Translations under genes and position numbers: made by a program
Shown: positions 51,895 to 64,000 of the stretch, piece after piece
How the letters are laid out: each line of letters starts with the position of its first letter
Numbering within the stretch: the first letter of the stretch is position 1
The notes under the pieces: generated by a model
The model's database searches: none
Seen by the model: only the letters and a program-made list of their open reading frames with translations
What the model was told of the DNA's origin: nothing
From: Pricia mediterranea
Lineage (GTDB): Bacteria > Bacteroidota > Bacteroidia > Flavobacteriales > Flavobacteriaceae
Assembly (NCBI RefSeq): GCF_032248455.1
Contig: NZ_JAVTTP010000001.1
Coordinates: 1,548,501-1,612,500 of the forward strand
Direction of reading: 5' to 3'
DNA: 64,000 bases

Positions 51895-53157
51895 ATGGCC
51901 AAGATAAGACTAATTCTCGACACTCGCACTCGGTCAAAAAGCCGGAAATCGGGACTCTACCCCGTAGTCCTAAAAATTATCCACCATAAGGTTGGTTTGA
52001 TTTATATGGGCGTGCGTACCTCAAAATCCGGATGGGACGATAAATATCACCAATTGCGCAAATCGGCTTATGAGAATAGGAATTTGAACTGTGATGATGA
52101 AAACAGACGGCTAAATGGGAAATTCTATCAAGCGAAAAGTGTCGTGGATGAATTGGGGGATAGTGTCGAGCATTTGGATGTCAAACGATTGAGGGAATAT
52201 ATAGAAAAAGCTTGGGACGAAAATCCAAATTCGGAGCTTAAAAAGAAAGTTGAAAATGAAATTTCCCTGGAAACGTGGGGCCAAAGATTGATACAGAGGA
52301 AACGGGCCGCAAATCTTCCGAATACGGCTAAATGGCTCCGTGGCGGAATTAATGCCATTGTTTCGTTCAATGACGGAAATGATATCATGTTATTTGATAT
52401 TACCGTAAGTTTTCTAAAGGACTTCGAGGCGTATCACCTGAGCAAGGGGAATTCCAAAAACACCATCAGCATCTATCTTCGGGCTGTCCGTTCAATTTAC
52501 AACAGTGCAATTTCGGAAGATCGGTTTACCCCTCTAAAGAATGTGTTCCAGCACTATAAAGTCCCGAGAACCAAACGTACCAAGAAAAGGGCATTGTTAA
52601 AAGAGGAACTCCGGAAAATCAAAGCATTGAAATATCCTGAGGGTACGGTGATGTGGCATGCATATAATTATCTTTTTATAATGTTCTACTGCAGGGGAAT
52701 GAATTTTATCGATTTGGTCAAGATAAAAACAAAGGATTTTAAGGATGGTAGGTTATCCTATGGCCGAAGCAAGACCGGTGAGCCGTTTTCCATATCTATT
52801 CCAAATGACCTTCAGAAAATAATGCAATATTACATTGAACGAAAAAAACCGAATGAATATCTTTTCCCCAACTATAATGATGGTAGCACCGAACAATTTC
52901 AAAAGTACAAATCCCAACGTCGAAGAATGAACGAACGCCTAAAGCTCATGGCGGAGGATGCAGGTATTACAACGGAGCTAACAACCTACTCCATCCGACA
53001 TTCTTGGGCCACAATAGCGAAGTACACCGGAATTTCCACAGCCCTGATAAGCGAAGGCTTGGGCCATAGTTCCGTGAAAACTACGGAGGTATATCTAAAG
53101 GATTTTGAGAATGCCGCTTTGGATGAAATTACGGAGAAGGTCGCTTCCATAATATAA
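51895..53157 (+). CDS. Second tyrosine-type integrase
   Basis: 420 aa. Arm-DNA-binding domain (GLYPVVLKIIHHKVGLIYMGVRTSKSGWDDKYHQ), SAM-like domain with SKNTISIYLRAVRSIYN, then the catalytic domain: R in FYCRGMNFIDL, H-x-x-R in YSIRHSWAT, LGHSSVKTTEVYL with the tyrosine. It is not closely similar to the 28476 integrase. It lies 176 bp right of the tRNA-Asp fragment and reads away from it, so it probably belongs to another element whose far end is outside the window or lost. Confidence 0.92.
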   Translation: MAKIRLILDTRTRSKSRKSGLYPVVLKIIHHKVGLIYMGVRTSKSGWDDKYHQLRKSAYENRNLNCDDENRRLNGKFYQAKSVVDELGDSVEHLDVKRLREYIEKAWDENPNSELKKKVENEISLETWGQRLIQRKRAANLPNTAKWLRGGINAIVSFNDGNDIMLFDITVSFLKDFEAYHLSKGNSKNTISIYLRAVRSIYNSAISEDRFTPLKNVFQHYKVPRTKRTKKRALLKEELRKIKALKYPEGTVMWHAYNYLFIMFYCRGMNFIDLVKIKTKDFKDGRLSYGRSKTGEPFSISIPNDLQKIMQYYIERKKPNEYLFPNYNDGSTEQFQKYKSQRRRMNERLKLMAEDAGITTELTTYSIRHSWATIAKYTGISTALISEGLGHSSVKTTEVYLKDFENAALDEITEKVASII

Positions 53158-56068: not shown

Positions 56069-58207
56069 TCACTTGGTAATATGCTCAGCAAACCCAAAAA
56101 CCATCCCATAAACATTGTAGATATCGGCAATCTCTGAATGGCCGGCATAAGGGTCGTTATAGAGGTAGGCACTTTCGGCGGCATCGAATTTCTGCAGCGT
56201 GGCCAGGTACTTGAACATTTGGAACCCGTCCACGCGGTCGTCGTTACCTGCCGATATGATGAGTGCGTTCGGAAGTTTTGTGTCCAGATCCAGGTTCAAC
56301 AAAGGATCCATGGCATATAGGTCGCTCCTTTCGGTGGAATCCTGTGCGCTCCCGAATTCGAGATGGTAGTTGTTGGAAAAATTGCCCTGCTCCAGTCGGG
56401 ACGGATTCAGGATGGGCATTTCGCCGATAAAACCGCTAAAAAGTTCCGGAGCCCCGTTAATGGCCATACCGCCCGCGACACCTCCCCCGCTCGGTGACAT
56501 CAGGACAATCCCGTCCGCGCTGGCGTAGTCCTTTTTTATCAGGAATTCCGCAGCGGCGATAATGTCCTTCCAACTGTTGCTTTTGGTGGCCTTTTTGCCC
56601 GCTTCGTACCAGTCCACCCCTTTTTCCCCGCCTCCCCTGATGTGTGGATAGACCAAGGTTCCCCCATTGGCCACCCATGGGAGGTACAGCGGACTGAAAC
56701 TAGGGGATATTTTCTCGCCAAAGGCGCCATAGGTCGTCATGATCGTGGGCCGGGCACCTCGGTACTCCGGATTCGTGATAATCGATATGGGGACCATGAC
56801 CCCGTCTTTGGACATATATTCCGTTTCCGTTACCCGTAGATCGTCGAACTCGGTATACACATTCTTGGCGCCGAAATTATCAAGTGCAAAAGAACCGTCG
56901 GGTTCCAATCGGTACCGTTTTAGATCGGATACCCATCCCGCGGAGTAGGCCCAAAGGATGTCCGCTTTCGGTGAGAGTATCTCCAAGTGGATTTCTCCCG
57001 ATTCCTGGGGCATCTTCAGCTCCACCGGATTTCCGGGCTCTTTTAGATGGTACAGTTTCGCCTTTACCCCGTTCTTTAGGGTGCTAAAGTAAAGTCCGTT
57101 GGAGTTGACGGCAAAATCGGATATGGTCTCCCCTTCAGGAGATTCCCTGACCAATTTAGGGTTCCAGCCGCGTTTGGTCAGATCCTCTTTTGAAAGGTTA
57201 AAACTCTTGGATGTGCCGGAGATGAAATAGAAGGTACCCTCGACCTGTTTAAAATTGGACGACAATACCTTGTCCGATTTGCGGTAAAGCGGCCTCCATT
57301 CCGGTGTACCCGCTTTAAGCGTTTCCCAATCGGCAATATAGGCATCCCAGTAATCGTCACTTGTCATCATCAATCCGATGGGATGGCTCTCATGGCTCGA
57401 AGTGGCTATAATCGATGGATAGGCCTTCGGATCGTCGGCATCGACCAGTTCCGAGCTAAGCACGGGAACTCCGAGCCCTTCACTGCCTATCAGGTACAGG
57501 TAGCTTTCGGCATTCTGTTTGTAACCGTCAACATCGCTATCTATAACCGGGAACCTGGTGTAGAGGAAACCGGAACTGTCCGGAAGCCAGCTGATCCCGC
57601 CAAAGCCCGATGGGGAGGAATTCGTAAATGGTTGGTGCAGCAATTCCCCGGTCTCCGCATCCAAAAGGAGCAACAGACCGGTCAGTCCGGAATAATCGTT
57701 GAACTCTACCCCCAAGTACCTCCCGTCCCATGAAGGAAGATAATAGCTGATGTAGTAGGAAGTGCCGTTCTTCCGGCCAAGGCTGTCCGTCGAGATCAAC
57801 AGTTTTTCGGTTCCATCCTTACGGTCGTAGGAATAGAGCGAAGTCACATCCCCGTCAATGGCATATTTAAGGTAAAAAGCACTCCCATCCTCACTATTTC
57901 TGAACATATACGGTGCACTCTCGTACCTGTTTCCGATATCCTCCAAAATGGAGGTCCATTTTGACTTTTCGGGAAGGGACCAAAGATCCTTCTTGGTTTG
58001 CCGGCTTTGGGCCTGTACCCAGTCCGACAAAAGGGAATCCGACATGGTCTCCATATTCCTAAAGTGGTCCTGGTAGGTTCTGTTCCCGTCCGACATGATC
58101 GCCATTTCATAGGGCAGCATAGGATTGTTTTGGCCTGTCCCGGATACGGACTTTTGGGCCGGACATGAACAAATCGATAAAACAGCTAGAATTGCGAATA
58201 CCTTCAT
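56069..58207 (-). CDS. Prolyl oligopeptidase-family (S9) serine peptidase, exported
   Basis: 712 aa from the ATG at 58207, which gives a signal sequence MKVFAILAVLSICSCPAQ with a lipobox-like end. The N-terminal half is a beta-propeller, the C-terminal third an alpha/beta hydrolase. The nucleophile region reads LMSPSGGGVAGG (a variant of GGSNGG), the aspartate is in SAGNDDRVDGFQ and the histidine in YAGHSEI. S9A enzymes cut short peptides after proline. It follows a proline-rich precursor gene by 51 bp, so it may mature or degrade that peptide. Confidence 0.85.
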   Translation of the reverse strand: MKVFAILAVLSICSCPAQKSVSGTGQNNPMLPYEMAIMSDGNRTYQDHFRNMETMSDSLLSDWVQAQSRQTKKDLWSLPEKSKWTSILEDIGNRYESAPYMFRNSEDGSAFYLKYAIDGDVTSLYSYDRKDGTEKLLISTDSLGRKNGTSYYISYYLPSWDGRYLGVEFNDYSGLTGLLLLLDAETGELLHQPFTNSSPSGFGGISWLPDSSGFLYTRFPVIDSDVDGYKQNAESYLYLIGSEGLGVPVLSSELVDADDPKAYPSIIATSSHESHPIGLMMTSDDYWDAYIADWETLKAGTPEWRPLYRKSDKVLSSNFKQVEGTFYFISGTSKSFNLSKEDLTKRGWNPKLVRESPEGETISDFAVNSNGLYFSTLKNGVKAKLYHLKEPGNPVELKMPQESGEIHLEILSPKADILWAYSAGWVSDLKRYRLEPDGSFALDNFGAKNVYTEFDDLRVTETEYMSKDGVMVPISIITNPEYRGARPTIMTTYGAFGEKISPSFSPLYLPWVANGGTLVYPHIRGGGEKGVDWYEAGKKATKSNSWKDIIAAAEFLIKKDYASADGIVLMSPSGGGVAGGMAINGAPELFSGFIGEMPILNPSRLEQGNFSNNYHLEFGSAQDSTERSDLYAMDPLLNLDLDTKLPNALIISAGNDDRVDGFQMFKYLATLQKFDAAESAYLYNDPYAGHSEIADIYNVYGMVFGFAEHITK

Positions 58208-58227: not shown

Positions 58228-58243
58228 GCCCCGTTTCCGGGGC
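58228..58243. promoter_or_regulatory. GC-rich stem-loop between precursor and peptidase genes
   Basis: GCCCCG-TTTC-CGGGGC in the 51-bp gap. No T-run follows on the minus strand. It could stabilise the precursor mRNA or partly stop transcription, giving more peptide than peptidase. Confidence 0.5.
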
Positions 58244-58258
58244 CAATAAACCCGTTCC

Positions 58259-58399
58259 TTACATCTTTTTGCCGAACGGAGGCCTTAACCCGCCCGTGGG
58301 TCTCCTGGGACGATCTATCGGGGGATGTCCTCCCCTCAATTCTTCCTTGTTCTTCAGTTCTTTGTTCTTCAACGCCGAAATCTTACTTGCATTTTTCAT
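58259..58399 (-). CDS. Double-glycine leader precursor of a proline-rich cationic peptide
   Basis: 46 aa, ATG at 58399, TAA at 58259. The leader (24 residues) begins MKNASKISALKNKELKNK and ends EELRGG, matching the L..EL..GG consensus cut by C39 peptidases and the Bacteroidota GG-leader precursor pattern. The predicted 22-residue core starts HPPIDRPRRP and ends PPFGKKM: six Pro, four Arg, two Lys, one Asp, no Cys, Ser or Trp. It resembles proline-rich antimicrobial peptides. A C39-peptidase exporter and adaptor lie in the same operon. An inner TGG could be a second cleavage point. Confidence 0.75.
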   Translation of the reverse strand: MKNASKISALKNKELKNKEELRGGHPPIDRPRRPTGGLRPPFGKKM

Positions 58400-58484: not shown

Positions 58485-58504
58485 TGCCATTTTATAAAAT
58501 GGCA
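58485..58504. promoter_or_regulatory. Perfect 20-bp palindrome before the precursor gene
   Basis: TGCCATTTTATAAAATGGCA, one base past the regulator stop codon and 85 bp upstream of the precursor start. Either an operator for the precursor transcript or a hairpin ending the upstream message. Confidence 0.55.
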
Positions 58505-58505
58505 G

Positions 58506-60140
58506 TTATTGGCTTCCCCTTCTCCTACGTTTGATCTGGTCAAGGTAATCCCTCGGTTTGATCTTTAAAAACTTTTCAAAAGCCCTATTGAAGGCCCTCA
58601 ATGAGGTGAATCCATAGAGTTTGGCAATATGCTCGAGGGTGTATATCGATATCTTAGGATTTCCGGGCATATCGGCGAATGCAAAATGTACGCGCCGACT
58701 GTTTATATAATCACTATAACCTCCATGGTTGGTATTTAAGTAGCCTGAAAGGTAAGTAGTGTTGGTCTCCGCGGCGGCGGATAGCTTCTGCAGCGACAGT
58801 GTAGGATCAAGGAAATGCTTCGCATTTTCGAATTCCCTAAGAAAACTGTCCAGTTGCTGTGTCAGTTCAACAGGGAGGTCGTTTCTTTTTTGCCTCGATT
58901 TTTTGTTCCCGTCCATCGCCCTTAGGTAGGTTTCCGGATTTCCGATCGCTTCCTTTAAACGTTTTTTATGGTGGAAGTAGCGTCCCAAGAAGAACACGAC
59001 CGAAAAAATCAACAGAACGGACAGGGCAATGACAAGATAGGTCAGGTTTCTTTTCGTGGCCCGGGCGGCAAGAAGCTGGGCCCGTCTTTCCTCGAACAGG
59101 GGCAGATCGTAATTTTTGTCCACCATGGAAAGTAGTCCTTTTGATTTCGATTCCAGGATACTATCGGCATCCATGAACTTTTCGATATAGGTCAACTGTT
59201 TTTCCCCGTCGCCGTCATTCAAGGCATCCTTGTAGAGCCTGAACCAGACATTCTTTATTTCCGGAAAATATAGTTCGGGCTCCCGGTCCAGGGAAGCGAT
59301 TTTACCGAAATAGAGCAAGGTACTGTCCGGGTTCCCGATCGCTTCGTGCGCAAGGGCGGTATAATAAAAGGAACTGCCAAGGTTTATCGTATCGATGGCC
59401 AAGTCCCTGGCCTTTTTCAGGCTGTCCAACGATCTCCTCAGATTCCCCCGCAAATAGTGGGAGACCCCGTTCAGGCGTAAAAAGGAGTCGTAGTTGAAGG
59501 TATCCTGTTTTTTTAGTGATTCCCGTATTCCAAGAGCGCTGTAGTAGGACAATGAATCGCTGTTCTTCAATCGAAAATGACAGTTGGCTATGTTAAAATA
59601 TAGCGCCAGACTATCTTCCGGTCGCATCTTGCGATACCTGTGGAGCAGTGCCAAGGACTCCGAGAATTCACCGGTCATGAATTTGATCGACGCCAGGGAG
59701 GCGGTGGTCATCCTGATGTAATATTCGTTATTCGTCTTCAGGCTGATCCATCGGGCCTCGAGGTCATAGCTCAGGGCCTTATTGTAGTCCTGTGCCTCAA
59801 TGAAATAGTAATTTGCATTTGTGGTCAGTGCGAAAAGTTCCTCATCGTTGTTCAGGCCTTTCGTCGAATATACAAGAGAATCAAGGTAGGGGAGGTTCTC
59901 GGGAGGGCTCCTAAAAAGGTAGTTCCCATAATGGGCCCATGAGACCGAAGAGGAATCTTTTGCAAGCCGCGCCATTTCGGTCAAATAGTTAGATAGGGCT
60001 ATGGCATCGGCACTATCCTTCTGAACATATATCAGTTCCATGATACTGGCCAAAGACCTGCTCCTTAGCGTATCGGCCTGCCCCATGAGCTGCAAGGAGA
60101 TAAATAGTATCACAAAAATGCACACCTGAGTCCTTTTCAT
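58506..60140 (-). CDS. TPR-containing, membrane-bound AraC-family regulator
   Basis: 544 aa. Signal peptide (MKRTQVCIFVILFISLQLMGQ), then periplasmic TPR repeats (about 25-350), one TM helix at 367-389 (LTYLVIALSVLLIFSVVFFLG), and a C-terminal AraC HTH pair (LSLQKLSAAAETNTTYLSGYLN and HIAKLYGFTSLRAFNRAFEKFLKIKPRDYL). It can sense a periplasmic or extracellular signal and act directly on DNA. It lies between the exporter genes and the precursor, so autoinduction by the secreted peptide is plausible but inferred. Spacing to HlyD is 3 bp. Confidence 0.87.
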   Translation of the reverse strand: MKRTQVCIFVILFISLQLMGQADTLRSRSLASIMELIYVQKDSADAIALSNYLTEMARLAKDSSSVSWAHYGNYLFRSPPENLPYLDSLVYSTKGLNNDEELFALTTNANYYFIEAQDYNKALSYDLEARWISLKTNNEYYIRMTTASLASIKFMTGEFSESLALLHRYRKMRPEDSLALYFNIANCHFRLKNSDSLSYYSALGIRESLKKQDTFNYDSFLRLNGVSHYLRGNLRRSLDSLKKARDLAIDTINLGSSFYYTALAHEAIGNPDSTLLYFGKIASLDREPELYFPEIKNVWFRLYKDALNDGDGEKQLTYIEKFMDADSILESKSKGLLSMVDKNYDLPLFEERRAQLLAARATKRNLTYLVIALSVLLIFSVVFFLGRYFHHKKRLKEAIGNPETYLRAMDGNKKSRQKRNDLPVELTQQLDSFLREFENAKHFLDPTLSLQKLSAAAETNTTYLSGYLNTNHGGYSDYINSRRVHFAFADMPGNPKISIYTLEHIAKLYGFTSLRAFNRAFEKFLKIKPRDYLDQIKRRRRGSQ

Positions 60141-60143
60141 AAT

Positions 60144-61355
60144 TCAAAGATCATTGAGGTTTTTGCGCAGGCCCATGAACAGCTTTTTAAAGAGGGTATT
60201 CTCTTCAAGGACAATCTCGCAACGCCCCGATAAGGTTCCTTTCCCGCTCATCCTATTTTTGAGGGCATTCACTTTGGAATCTATTCGTACATATGCAGGA
60301 TAGTAGGGTCCGTCCGCCCGTTTGGGGGACGCCGATATTTCCGTAATGACACCTTCCAGAATCCCCCACTCCTCGAAAGGGAAGCTATGAAGCTTGATCA
60401 TGACCTTTTGGCCTTCCCGGACATTCCCGGCATTGCGGATCGGGACCTTCAGTATTCCGATAAGGGGTGATTCCTGATCCGGTAGGACCTGGAAGATATC
60501 CTCCCCATCATCGACCCATTGGTAAGGCGACCGAACGTCAAAGAAGGACACCTTGCCGTAAACGGGACTGACAACAAGATTCTTCTCCTCCCATAACGCT
60601 ATTTCCGACAGCACCTTTATCGATGAAATTTCCATCTCCGTAAAACGGCCCTTGAACTTCTCGTTGGTCCGATAGGCATCCGTAGTGTAATCGGAACGTA
60701 AGCGGTTTACCTCTTGAAGGCTCCGGTTGTATTCCAACTGTGATCTTTCCAGTTCGGATCTTGATATCACCCCCTTCTCAAATAGGATCTGCATCCTTGA
60801 GTGGTTCCGCGCTACCAAAACGTTCGTATGTTCTGCCGTCCGCATCCGTTTGAAAATATTCGAAAAGGCATCACTTTGGGATATCCTGATACTATCCTCC
60901 ATAAGGTTTGCAATGGTGTTGCCATAAAAATTCTCTATTGTCTTTATGTCGTTGTACGCCCCAAGGTATTCGCTGTACGCCCGCTGTAGGGAGCCGATCG
61001 ATACCGGCCTGGCGAACCCCAGTTCTTCCGGGACGGTCTGTTTGGAAACCGCCTCCTTGATCGCCTTCAGGTCTCCGTATTCGGCGGGGGTGTCGAACTC
61101 GGCCAATATCCGGCCGGGATAGACCGAATCGCCCTGCCCGACCAGGAACTCAGCGATCTGGCCGGTGCGTTTTGTTTTCAGGACAATTGGGGGAAGAACC
61201 GGCATGACCTCGATGCGTGCCTGCATAACGTCCCGGTACTCCACGATCAGGGAGGCAACGAGAACGATACACAGAATGCCTGCGACAATTTGGATCCCGA
61301 TCCTTGCAAGCCTACCGGGAGGCCTTCCTATAAAATCCTTGCTATCAAAGTCCAT
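60144..61355 (-). CDS. HlyD-family membrane fusion protein of the peptide exporter
   Basis: 403 aa. One N-terminal TM helix (IGIQIVAGILCIVLVASLIV), a biotinyl-lipoyl-like half (RTGQIAEFLVGQGDSVYPGRILAEFDT), a long coiled-coil hairpin (about 130-250) and the matching second half (VSPVYGKVSFFDVRS). It links the inner membrane ABC exporter to an outer membrane channel. It starts 1 bp after the ABC gene stop. No TolC gene is beside it. Confidence 0.9.
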   Translation of the reverse strand: MDFDSKDFIGRPPGRLARIGIQIVAGILCIVLVASLIVEYRDVMQARIEVMPVLPPIVLKTKRTGQIAEFLVGQGDSVYPGRILAEFDTPAEYGDLKAIKEAVSKQTVPEELGFARPVSIGSLQRAYSEYLGAYNDIKTIENFYGNTIANLMEDSIRISQSDAFSNIFKRMRTAEHTNVLVARNHSRMQILFEKGVISRSELERSQLEYNRSLQEVNRLRSDYTTDAYRTNEKFKGRFTEMEISSIKVLSEIALWEEKNLVVSPVYGKVSFFDVRSPYQWVDDGEDIFQVLPDQESPLIGILKVPIRNAGNVREGQKVMIKLHSFPFEEWGILEGVITEISASPKRADGPYYPAYVRIDSKVNALKNRMSGKGTLSGRCEIVLEENTLFKKLFMGLRKNLNDL

Positions 61356-61356
61356 A

Positions 61357-63525
61357 TTACAACTGGTTGCCGATCAATCGGTAATAGTGTCCCTTGGAGG
61401 CCAAAAGCTGGTCGTGCCGCCCTTGTTCCAGGACTCCCGTCGGACCGATGACAACGATATTGTCGGCGTTCCTTATCGTTGAAAGTCGATGGGCAATCGT
61501 TATTGCCGTTCTGTCCCCGAGAAAGTCCTTGAGGTTGGCGATGATCTGCCTTTCGTTTTCTGAGTCCAGGGCACTTGTCGCCTCGTCAAGAATTACGATA
61601 GGGGCATCCTTATAGATGGCCCTGGCAATAAGTAATCTTTGCTTCTCGCCCCCGCTCAGCTGTATGCCGTTCTTACCGACCTTGGTATGGATGCCATTCG
61701 GCAGGGAATTGACCATATCCCCGAGGTTCGATAGTCTTAGGCTTTTCAATAGTCTGGCATTGTCGACCGGTCGCTCAGAATCGGATTCCGTAAGGTTGTT
61801 CAAAAGGGTGTCGTAGAAAACATTTCCTTCCTGCATGACCACTGCCACCTTGTTCCTCCAATAGTCCTCGTTCAGTGCCCCCAAAGAAATATTGTCGATA
61901 AGGATCTCCCCCGTATCGGGCGGAGCGTATTTCAATAGCAGTTTTAGGATGGTGGTCTTCCCTGTCCCACTGGTACCTACTATGGCGGTGGTCTTATTGG
62001 GCGGGATGTAAAGGTTAAGACCTTCTAGCCGGAACCGCGAACCATGGTCGTACGAGAAGCTTACATTTTTAAATCGGATCGAGGGTGCGGCGGATATATA
62101 CTCGATCTCCTGCCGGTAGGTTTTAGGGGCGGTAGCGTGCACCTCCCTCAACCTGGCGTACGCCAGTTGCGCTTCCTGGTACTTTAGGACAAAATCGAAC
62201 AGTTCCCTTAGAGGGCCCTGGGTCTGGGCGAGAATATACTGGACGGCCAGGAGCGTACCTAACGAAAGTTCGTCCCTGACCACTGCCATGGCCCCGATGA
62301 CCATGATAATTATGTTCTTGGATTCATTGATAAACCGTGACCCGTTGTTTAGGTATTCCTCGATGGACAGGCGTTGGATGTTGGTACGGAAAATTTGACG
62401 CTGGAACCTTTGCCATATCCTCCTCCTTCTCCTTTGGGAACCATTGATCACGATGTCCTCGATATTGTCGAAGAGTTCCAGCAGAATATCGGTGTTCCTG
62501 ATATCGTTGTCGAAAACCGCGTTGTCGATTTTCTTCCGCTTCCTGACGAACAGGAGTATCCATAAAAAATAGGCCAGCGTCCCAAAGAAAAAGAACATAA
62601 AAATAGTCGTGTCGAAATAGGCCAGGATAAGGCCGAAGACCATCAGGTTGAACATCGCGAACAGGGTGTTGGCGGTATTGTTTCCGAGGAACGAGTCGAT
62701 GGTCTCATGGTCGAACACACGTTGCAAGAGGTCGCCGCTCCTTTTTCCCGCAAAGAATGAAAGCGGCATCTGAAAGAGTTTATAAAGATAATCCGTTACC
62801 ATTCTGTAATTTACCCGGCTGACCACGTGCAGGGTAATCCAGTTGCGGACCGAGCTGATCAAAATGGTGCAAGCGAAGAAAAATAGCTGGGCGATCAAAA
62901 CGGTGTAAACAAAACCCACATCCTTTGCCAGGACCCCGTAATCTACTAGTCTTTGGGTCAAAAAAGGCATGGCGATGTTGATCAAGGCGACCATCAACAG
63001 TCCGATCAATAGCTGCCGAACATGCGCCCGGTACGGGGCGATATAGTTCCAAAGAATGCCAAGGTTCCCTTTGGCGGGCCCGTTGCTGTCCAGGGAATAG
63101 AAATCCATGGTAGGCTCGAAAAGTATCGCGGTACCCGTAGAGGCCCCCGTCATCCAGCCTTTTATGAACCTTTCGTGGGACAGTCGCGAGTTACCGGATG
63201 CCGGGTCGCTAATATGTACGTGCCTACTACCTACCCGGTTTACGACGACGAAATGCTCCTGGCGCCAATGTGCTATTAGGGGAAAAGGGGCCTTTTCCTT
63301 CAGGTCATCGAAGGTGATCGATACCGGCAAGGTGTTGATGTGGTAGCTCTCCGCCGCTTTCTCCAATTCCAGAATGGACACCCCGTTCTTGGTCTGACCG
63401 ACCCGTTCCCGTATTTCGGCCATATCACGATACACCCCGTGCTGCATCATCACCATGGACAGGGACGAGGCGCCACAGTCGGAGGCGTCGAATTGTCTTT
63501 GTAAGGGATATCGTTGTCGGAACAT
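61357..63525 (-). CDS. Peptidase-containing ABC transporter (C39 peptidase, TM domain, ATPase)
   Basis: 722 aa. The N-terminal C39 domain has the catalytic C17 in DASDCGASSLSMV, histidine in QEHFVVVNRV and aspartate in HISDPASG. Six TM helices follow (about 165-440). The ATPase has GTSGTGKTT, LSGGEKQRLLIARAI and VILDEATSALD. Such PCATs cut after a GG leader and export the core peptide. Its predicted client is the precursor at 58259-58399. It is the first gene of the minus-strand operon. Confidence 0.93.
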   Translation of the reverse strand: MFRQRYPLQRQFDASDCGASSLSMVMMQHGVYRDMAEIRERVGQTKNGVSILELEKAAESYHINTLPVSITFDDLKEKAPFPLIAHWRQEHFVVVNRVGSRHVHISDPASGNSRLSHERFIKGWMTGASTGTAILFEPTMDFYSLDSNGPAKGNLGILWNYIAPYRAHVRQLLIGLLMVALINIAMPFLTQRLVDYGVLAKDVGFVYTVLIAQLFFFACTILISSVRNWITLHVVSRVNYRMVTDYLYKLFQMPLSFFAGKRSGDLLQRVFDHETIDSFLGNNTANTLFAMFNLMVFGLILAYFDTTIFMFFFFGTLAYFLWILLFVRKRKKIDNAVFDNDIRNTDILLELFDNIEDIVINGSQRRRRRIWQRFQRQIFRTNIQRLSIEEYLNNGSRFINESKNIIIMVIGAMAVVRDELSLGTLLAVQYILAQTQGPLRELFDFVLKYQEAQLAYARLREVHATAPKTYRQEIEYISAAPSIRFKNVSFSYDHGSRFRLEGLNLYIPPNKTTAIVGTSGTGKTTILKLLLKYAPPDTGEILIDNISLGALNEDYWRNKVAVVMQEGNVFYDTLLNNLTESDSERPVDNARLLKSLRLSNLGDMVNSLPNGIHTKVGKNGIQLSGGEKQRLLIARAIYKDAPIVILDEATSALDSENERQIIANLKDFLGDRTAITIAHRLSTIRNADNIVVIGPTGVLEQGRHDQLLASKGHYYRLIGNQL

Positions 63526-63865: not shown

Positions 63866-64000
63866 ATGGTCTATCAAAAGTTATTGGAAGATTTTGAGGA
63901 CACGTTGAGGGAAGCGAAGAAAAAGGCTGCCGGAACGATGCAGGAGGCCGTGGCCGGAATCAAGGTTTGCCAAGATTTCCTGGATATGATGAGGGGGGCA
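63866..64000 (+). CDS. N-terminal part of an unknown protein (possibly RteC-like)
   Basis: The frame is open from ATG 63866 to the window edge (45 codons): MVYQKLLEDFEDTLREAKKK and a helical continuation with VAGIKVCQDFLDMM. The pattern of an amphipathic start with a LE-rich helix is reminiscent of RteC-domain proteins of mobile elements, but it is too short to be sure. Confidence 0.35.
   Translation, partial: MVYQKLLEDFEDTLREAKKKAAGTMQEAVAGIKVCQDFLDMMRGA

Follow-up and report, generated by a model that had tools for sequence, protein, structure and literature searches.

A GG-leader peptide gene in a candidate peptide-signalling cassette of Flavobacteriaceae conjugative elements

Described peptide-signalling and conjugation systems compared with the Pricia locus

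The genes plcR, papR and nprB are adjacent to each other. According to the accessible parts of the respective reports, NprB matures PapR in part (PMC4701985), while the receptors of RRNPP systems are cytoplasmic, their peptides are re-imported, and the systems belong to Gram-positive bacteria (PMC6540685, PMC9765709). The RRNPPA survey concerns Firmicutes, and the terms 'Bacteroid', 'Gram-negative' and 'transmembrane' are absent from its accessible text (PMC9765709). In the available sections of PMC6540685, two such systems are reported to act on excision or transfer of mobile elements, RapI-PhrI on ICEBs1 and PrgX with cCF10/iCF10 on plasmid pCF10. For the element CTnDOT, the available text of PMC1976400 reports that, in the presence of tetracycline, rteC is turned on by the two-component system RteA/RteB, RteB being the activator, and that RteC controls the excision and transfer genes (PMC1976400).

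The window, i.e. the complete stretch of 64,000 nucleotides from Pricia mediterranea analysed here, carries a small gene for a GG-leader peptide, which is accompanied by genes for a C39 exporter, an HlyD-type adaptor, a TPR-AraC regulator and an S9 oligopeptidase. We refer to the order TPR-AraC regulator, GG peptide, S9 gene as the cassette. It has in common with PlcR-PapR-NprB and other RRNPP(A) systems a TPR receptor, a small peptide predicted to be exported and a candidate maturing peptidase, and RapF and RapJ are matched by a profile of its regulators. A peptide gene beside the gene of a TPR receptor, which is an RRNPP(A) trait, is present at 19 loci. The soluble cytoplasmic receptor of RRNPP(A) systems, in contrast, is not what the cassette regulators appear to be, as judged from hydropathy (19 of 19): they have a predicted signal sequence, a TPR part predicted to lie outside, a transmembrane stretch and a C-terminal AraC-type HTH, and peptide export would be of the C39 type. 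By analogy, the cassette would work like an RRNPP system, yet it is not one.

With RapI-PhrI and PrgX, the cassette shares the combination of a peptide and a TPR receptor on a conjugative element, on the transfer of which it would likewise act; it differs from them in receptor architecture and in its putative target, which is rteC. The likeness to CTnDOT consists of an rteC from the same Pfam family and a traG on the same contig, whereas the peptide cassette beside rteC sets the cassette elements apart. Class I lanthipeptides of Bacteroidetes, as far as the accessible text of PMC7268733 describes them, also combine a GG leader with a C39 protease, but no dehydratase or cyclase gene was seen beside the window cassette, and its peptide core is devoid of Cys and Ser. 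The window locus has both the GG leader and the C39 exporter of C39-exported double-glycine peptides. A cassette of this kind was not described in the titles and abstract beginnings among the literature matches listed, a set that leaves most subscription journals outside and is weak evidence of novelty.

We consider it likely, with a probability of about 0.6, that an autoregulated signalling cassette on a CTnDOT-type conjugative element uses this peptide as its signal. The cassette may feed rteC, because at least two related elements have the palindrome that precedes the peptide gene in tandem before rteC as well.

The peptide gene and its neighbours

The peptide gene (58259..58399, minus strand) starts with ATG and comprises 46 codons and a stop codon. 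It codes for a leader of 24 residues ending in GG (MKNASKISALKNKELKNKEELRGG; 58328..58399, minus strand), after which cleavage is predicted from the C39 family, and for a core of 22 residues (HPPIDRPRRPTGGLRPPFGKKM; 58262..58327, minus strand). The core has a net charge of +5 and contains 6 Pro and 6 Arg/Lys as well as the motifs RPRRP and PPF; these residue counts and motifs had been claimed correctly in an earlier sequence-only reading of the locus. The window peptide has no family model in Pfam, NCBIfam or PHROGs, and a search of Rfam was empty.

An ortholog of the peptide is present in genome G002, where the upstream genes are as in the window. The G002 contig and DRGL01000030.1 are identical in sequence; the latter is from a MAG with the label Pricia antarctica HyVt-345. 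The two peptides are identical at 14 of 24 leader residues and at 17 of the 22 aligned positions of the core. At the codon level, 15 of the 22 aligned core codons are changed, 10 of them synonymously, and the overall values for the peptide are dN 0.25 and dS 3.7, the latter being saturated. Because of this ortholog, of the shared upstream genes and of the mostly synonymous core changes, the status of the gene is beyond chance: the frame of 46 codons represents a genuine gene that is conserved. The sequence-only reading, which had claimed such a gene and named conservation of the frame in relatives with the same operon as a test, is thus borne out by the G002 ortholog with its same neighbours and by 19 loci with the same gene order. 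That the frame has arisen by chance and is no gene would be compatible with its short length and with the family models that do not match, but is hardly credible in view of the synonymous changes and of the gene order at the 19 loci.

In the ortholog locus (L065, 3163-5332), the frame of the exporter is broken in the MAG, by either decay or an assembly error. The other Pricia genomes examined, G001 and G003 (the latter 79% complete), have neither a peptide nor a C39 match. When the single peptide was used as query (matches with E <= 1), 27 genomes beyond the Pricia ortholog were matched at E 0.017-0.93. These weak matches were treated as chance; the two loci on the right strand that were opened both lie inside a PheS-like protein, which we take to be PheS.

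Upstream of the peptide gene and on the same strand are the genes for the TPR/AraC protein, the probable receptor (58506-60140, minus strand; N-terminal signal, TPR region, transmembrane stretch at about 368-386, AraC-type HTH), an HlyD-type adaptor (60144-61355, minus strand; assigned by Pfam) and a C39-peptidase ABC exporter (61357-63525, minus strand; Pfam). The latter is the only C39 match of the window genome; among nine genomes with a cassette that were tested, seven have the cassette exporter as their sole C39 match. The exporter, adaptor and membrane-bound AraC regulator had been named in the sequence-only reading and are confirmed; the S9 oligopeptidase and rteC had been overlooked.

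The gene for the S9 oligopeptidase (56069-58207, minus strand) starts 51 bp downstream of the peptide gene, from which it is separated by a G+C-rich hairpin (58228..58243, minus strand) that is terminator-like by eye. The enzyme has an N-terminal export signal (by eye), the Pfam domains PF00326 and PF02897, and a catalytic triad. On the other side, rteC (63866..64000, plus strand; PF09357, E 2.9e-52) starts 0.34 kb from the exporter gene, is divergent from it and continues beyond the window. In the window genome, traG is found 26 kb further on, and the three genes that follow rteC recur beside other rteC copies. About 3 kb past the S9 gene is a tyrosine integrase (51895-53157, plus strand), which could be the conjugative element's own integrase. 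Neither LanB/LanC nor another modification gene was recognised among the frames flanking the window cassette.

The cassette in Flavobacteriaceae and the variation of its parts

The cassette order was found at 19 loci in Flavobacteriaceae: the window, G002, G266, G298, G413, G151, G362, G258, G185, G361, G501, G360, G393 (two loci), G179, G164, G218, G390 and G220. Two of the 19 are qualified: the S9 gene of G002 is truncated and located on another contig, and G390 has an extra gene in between. The count of 19 is a minimum and should not be read as a frequency, the genomes being samples from larger groups and only part of the matches having been opened. The searches covered 99 genomes with the exporter, 397 with the adaptor, 397 and 395 with the peptide profiles, and 397 with the S9 profile, for which at most two candidates per genome were scored. 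Among the best 33 of the 48 S9 matches listed, 20 belong to 18 cassette loci and 13 lie elsewhere; the 19th locus, G501, was obtained with an order-wide peptide profile.

The first peptide-profile search missed members, as its weaker rows G361 and G360 later proved to be real cassettes. The additional matches of the order-wide profile are mostly restricted to the leader and belong to one other family. Seven loci opened from this profile comprise two cassettes (G501 and G360), one tandem array (G592) and four non-cassettes. Peptide-profile matches in G264, G028 and G220:C5 were rejected, there being no cassette at these loci. The S9 matches in G403 and G036 stand outside the cassette count, since a TPR-AraC gene is present but a GG peptide was not found: in G403 (L220, 5109-10963) the TPR-AraC gene lies near the S9 gene together with a gene for 554 aa, and in G036 (L236, 2796-10118) three consecutive TPR-AraC genes do so.

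C39 and HlyD genes are located within the fetched stretch at 10 of the 19 cassette loci. Lantibiotic dehydratase genes precede four cassettes (G501, G360, G164 and G390; assigned by Pfam, N-terminal part, in all four). Related arrangements were seen outside the cassette family. The array in G592 (L187, 6938-7847, minus strand) comprises five GG-leader peptides in tandem, the leaders of which are almost the same; four of the peptides have cores like DDPVIDPNNQNEPKKTGGNGNP. In its vicinity are a TPR-AraC-like gene and a C39/HlyD pair. In G039 (L047, 8598-8759), a C39 exporter with 42% identity to the window exporter lies next to another kind of GG peptide, the core of which is basic and ends in NSGRRNGGRR.

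The cores vary strongly. The two Pricia cores contain 6 and 7 Pro, while those from the other 17 loci contain 0-3; the net charge of the 19 cores ranges from -8 to +5, and no Cys/Ser/Thr pattern is common to them. This bears on the sequence-only reading, in which the product was proposed to act as a proline-rich antimicrobial peptide, entering cells and blocking ribosomes. The two Pricia cores are indeed Pro-rich and cationic, and resemble the Pro/Arg-rich antimicrobial peptides of animals, but neither Pro richness nor positive charge is kept at the other 17 loci. This is the outcome that the same reading had named as refuting it, namely variation of the core in which proline and charge are not retained. 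On the basis of core composition across the family we thus reject the antimicrobial interpretation, which we consider very unlikely, whereas the signalling peptide offered as its alternative holds up.

A PIDRDK-like motif occurs in 11 cores, e.g. QDGPIDRDKVLRKGRRQG (G266), GDGPIDRDKIRTSERR (G151) and DDDDDPVDKDKTRPPTVDDDITND (G393). The 11 loci are on one side of a split in the tree of the 19 regulators, a side that includes the window (support 0.939; 0.855 without G393 and 0.785 without G393 and G185). The core from G501, DPIDIKTITTHVNI, contains DPIDIKT and thus has PID, yet falls outside the motif branch.

The regulator is predicted to be a membrane-spanning receptor with the TPR part outside and the AraC-type HTH inside. 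All 19 regulators have a hydrophobic N-terminus and an internal transmembrane-like stretch, as judged from hydropathy. The HTH_18 score of the window regulator, 24.8 bits, is below the Pfam cut-off of 33.6, and the relatives match at E <= 0.001 (19/19). Among 17 regulators (Pricia left out), mean identity is 28% in the TPR part and 47% in the HTH part. When the regulator profile was compared to solved structures, RapF (E 3e-10) and RapJ (5e-5), both of which are peptide receptors, were matched, as were AraC-type HTH chains; eukaryotic TPR proteins are matched with equal or better scores, one of them better. The matches to RapF and RapJ are accordingly evidence of fold and not of function. A structure model of the receptor, with a mean pLDDT of 45, is too poor for use.

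A Trp in the S1 position is typical of proline-specific S9 enzymes. The cassette enzymes share with prolyl oligopeptidase both Pfam domains and the residues Ser, Asp and His (the Ser and Asp columns are invariant in 8 of 8, His is present in 8 of 8 by eye), but the S1 Trp is replaced: the position aligned with that of the 2bkl chain is occupied by Tyr, Ser or Asn in all eight (by eye). Cleavage by the S9 enzyme at a conserved core Pro was considered and dropped, given the missing S1 Trp and a Val at the respective core position in G298. The signal may be either trimmed or degraded by this enzyme.

Palindromes, rteC and the role of the peptide

A perfect palindrome of 20 bp, TGCCATTTTATAAAATGGCA, is located at 58485..58504, its centre being 95 nt before the ATG of the peptide gene, and represents a candidate operator or RNA hairpin. 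It has one exact place in the window genome and three places at 3 mismatches, as compared to one for a reversed-pattern control. At 16 of the 19 loci (the exceptions are G185, G393 and G218), a palindrome centred on TTTATAAA lies 73-100 nt upstream of the start codon of the peptide gene, while its distance from the stop codon of the regulator varies from -3 to 54. In shuffled sequences the mean was 0.38 loci with the element, with a maximum of 4 in 1000 trials. The fetched stretches contain 904 further genes, of which 9 have TTTATAAA in the same range, and four of these nine are part of cassettes or of the clusters around them (the G298 exporter, both G393 regulators and the G164 dehydratase). 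The palindrome arms differ between loci and are mostly still complementary, as in TATCGTGATATTTATAAATATCACGATA (G220) and ATGTTTAGATTTATAAATCTAAACAT (G360); they are short in G361 and G390. Five of the elements, folded as RNA, form hairpins with z -3.2 to -7.3, and the palindrome may thus act as an RNA hairpin.

TPR-AraC/GG-peptide pairs also occur in lanthipeptide-type clusters that are devoid of S9 (L105 at 4918 and 7116; L112 at 6527), with TTTATAAA 76-78 nt before the ATG. Because the element precedes these three GG-peptide genes as well, the TTTATAAA signature may reflect a more general scheme by which secreted peptides of Flavobacteria are wired.

An rteC gene adjoins 10 of the 19 cassettes. 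At nine it is within about 0.5 kb (the window, G002, G266, G298, G413, G151, G362, G258 and G361), and in G390 it is about 2.2 kb away with one gene in between. The adjoining copy is the only RteC match of the genome in G000, G413, G258 and G390. In nine of these ten cases traG is on the same contig at a distance of about 5-28 kb; the G266 contig ends just after rteC. The other nine cassettes are not beside rteC: an RteC match was not found in genomes G393, G179, G164, G218 and G220, and is located elsewhere in G185, G360 and G501.

In the G413 genome, GTCATTTATAAATGRC has two exact sites, one upstream of the peptide gene and the other upstream of rteC. If one mismatch is allowed, the number of sites in this genome rises to four; three of these are in the cassette region, and two of the three are 20 bp apart before rteC. 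Sites for GTCATTTATAAATGRC were limited to 0-1 mismatch because at 2 mismatches they were not clearly above the reversed control in most of seven genomes. In G266, two palindromes are about 20 bp apart upstream of rteC. More generally, the 300 bp upstream of rteC contain TTTATAAA at 8 of 10 loci with an adjoining cassette versus 3 of 18 others (Fisher p 0.003, from a post hoc test on related loci with a motif chosen after seeing the data). The count is based on 32 RteC rows less four fragments, which leaves 10 cassette copies and 18 controls, one of the latter with an internal stop. Pairs of TTTATAAA spaced 20-21 or 31 bp occur before rteC at five of the ten cassette loci. Full palindromes like those before the peptide gene are not formed by the elements upstream of rteC in G151, G362, G258, G361 and G002. 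As the window and G390 have no TTTATAAA element within 300 bp before rteC, the link to rteC is supported in the relatives and extends to the window by analogy. One of the controls, a copy of rteC that adjoins no cassette (L274, G185:C13), has two TTTATAAA 32 bp apart upstream; in the same genome, a cassette that is not linked to this copy is found on a different contig, and action in trans is conceivable.

From the protein families and the gene order, we infer that the C39 transporter and HlyD adaptor would cut the precursor after GG and export the core. Either whole or trimmed by the co-encoded, putatively exported S9 oligopeptidase, the core would bind to the outward-facing TPR region, upon which the inner HTH of the regulator would act at the palindrome observed before the peptide gene. 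That the signal sets rteC, and thereby excision and transfer, is a more tentative proposal, for which we see slightly less than even odds; in the window, its trace is the adjacency of rteC.

Two other explanations have to be weighed. The peptide system might be self-sensing and rteC a mere neighbour, the cassette controlling itself or other cargo, and cassettes gathering at a cargo hot spot. The nine cassettes located elsewhere, the varying orientation of the cassette relative to rteC, and the rteC genes of the window and G390, which are not preceded by a palindrome, agree with this explanation; the tandem palindromes before rteC in G413 and G266 and the spaced TTTATAAA pairs at five of ten loci argue against it, and we consider it rather unlikely. 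The peptide might also be an effector, similar to bacteriocins or RiPPs, with the AraC protein switching the operon on and the S9 enzyme maturing the product or protecting the producer. A GG leader and a C39 exporter are the usual outfit of such products, and the dehydratase genes that precede four of the 19 cassettes suit a product as well as a signal; moreover, the accessible text of PMC7268733 has a protease of the prolyl oligopeptidase family, LanPB, proposed for some lanthipeptide clusters. However, no modification gene was seen beside the window cassette in the stretches read, no gene resembling an immunity gene came to notice, the cores share neither charge nor a Cys/Ser/Thr pattern, and the position of the palindrome is specific to the peptide gene. 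An effector role thus appears unlikely.

We therefore retain the autoregulated signalling cassette as the preferred interpretation. Extended to the family, it could mean that conjugative elements of Flavobacteriaceae carry a full peptide-pheromone circuit, composed of a GG peptide, a C39 exporter, an exported S9 enzyme, a transmembrane TPR-AraC receptor, and operators at the peptide gene and rteC, by which holders of the element would sense each other and set rteC, excision and transfer. The ligand and the operator arms would diverge from element to element. For this extended interpretation as a whole, the odds appear to be somewhat short of even.

As far as the accessible parts of the literature tell, peptide control of the transfer of mobile elements has so far been a Gram-positive story, and CTnDOT is known to be triggered by tetracycline. 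With its predicted ligand, receptor and operator, the compact, movable cassette would make peptide listening by elements of Bacteroidota directly testable. If true, this would be a counterpart of RapI-PhrI and PrgX in Gram-negative bacteria, with a distinct structure.
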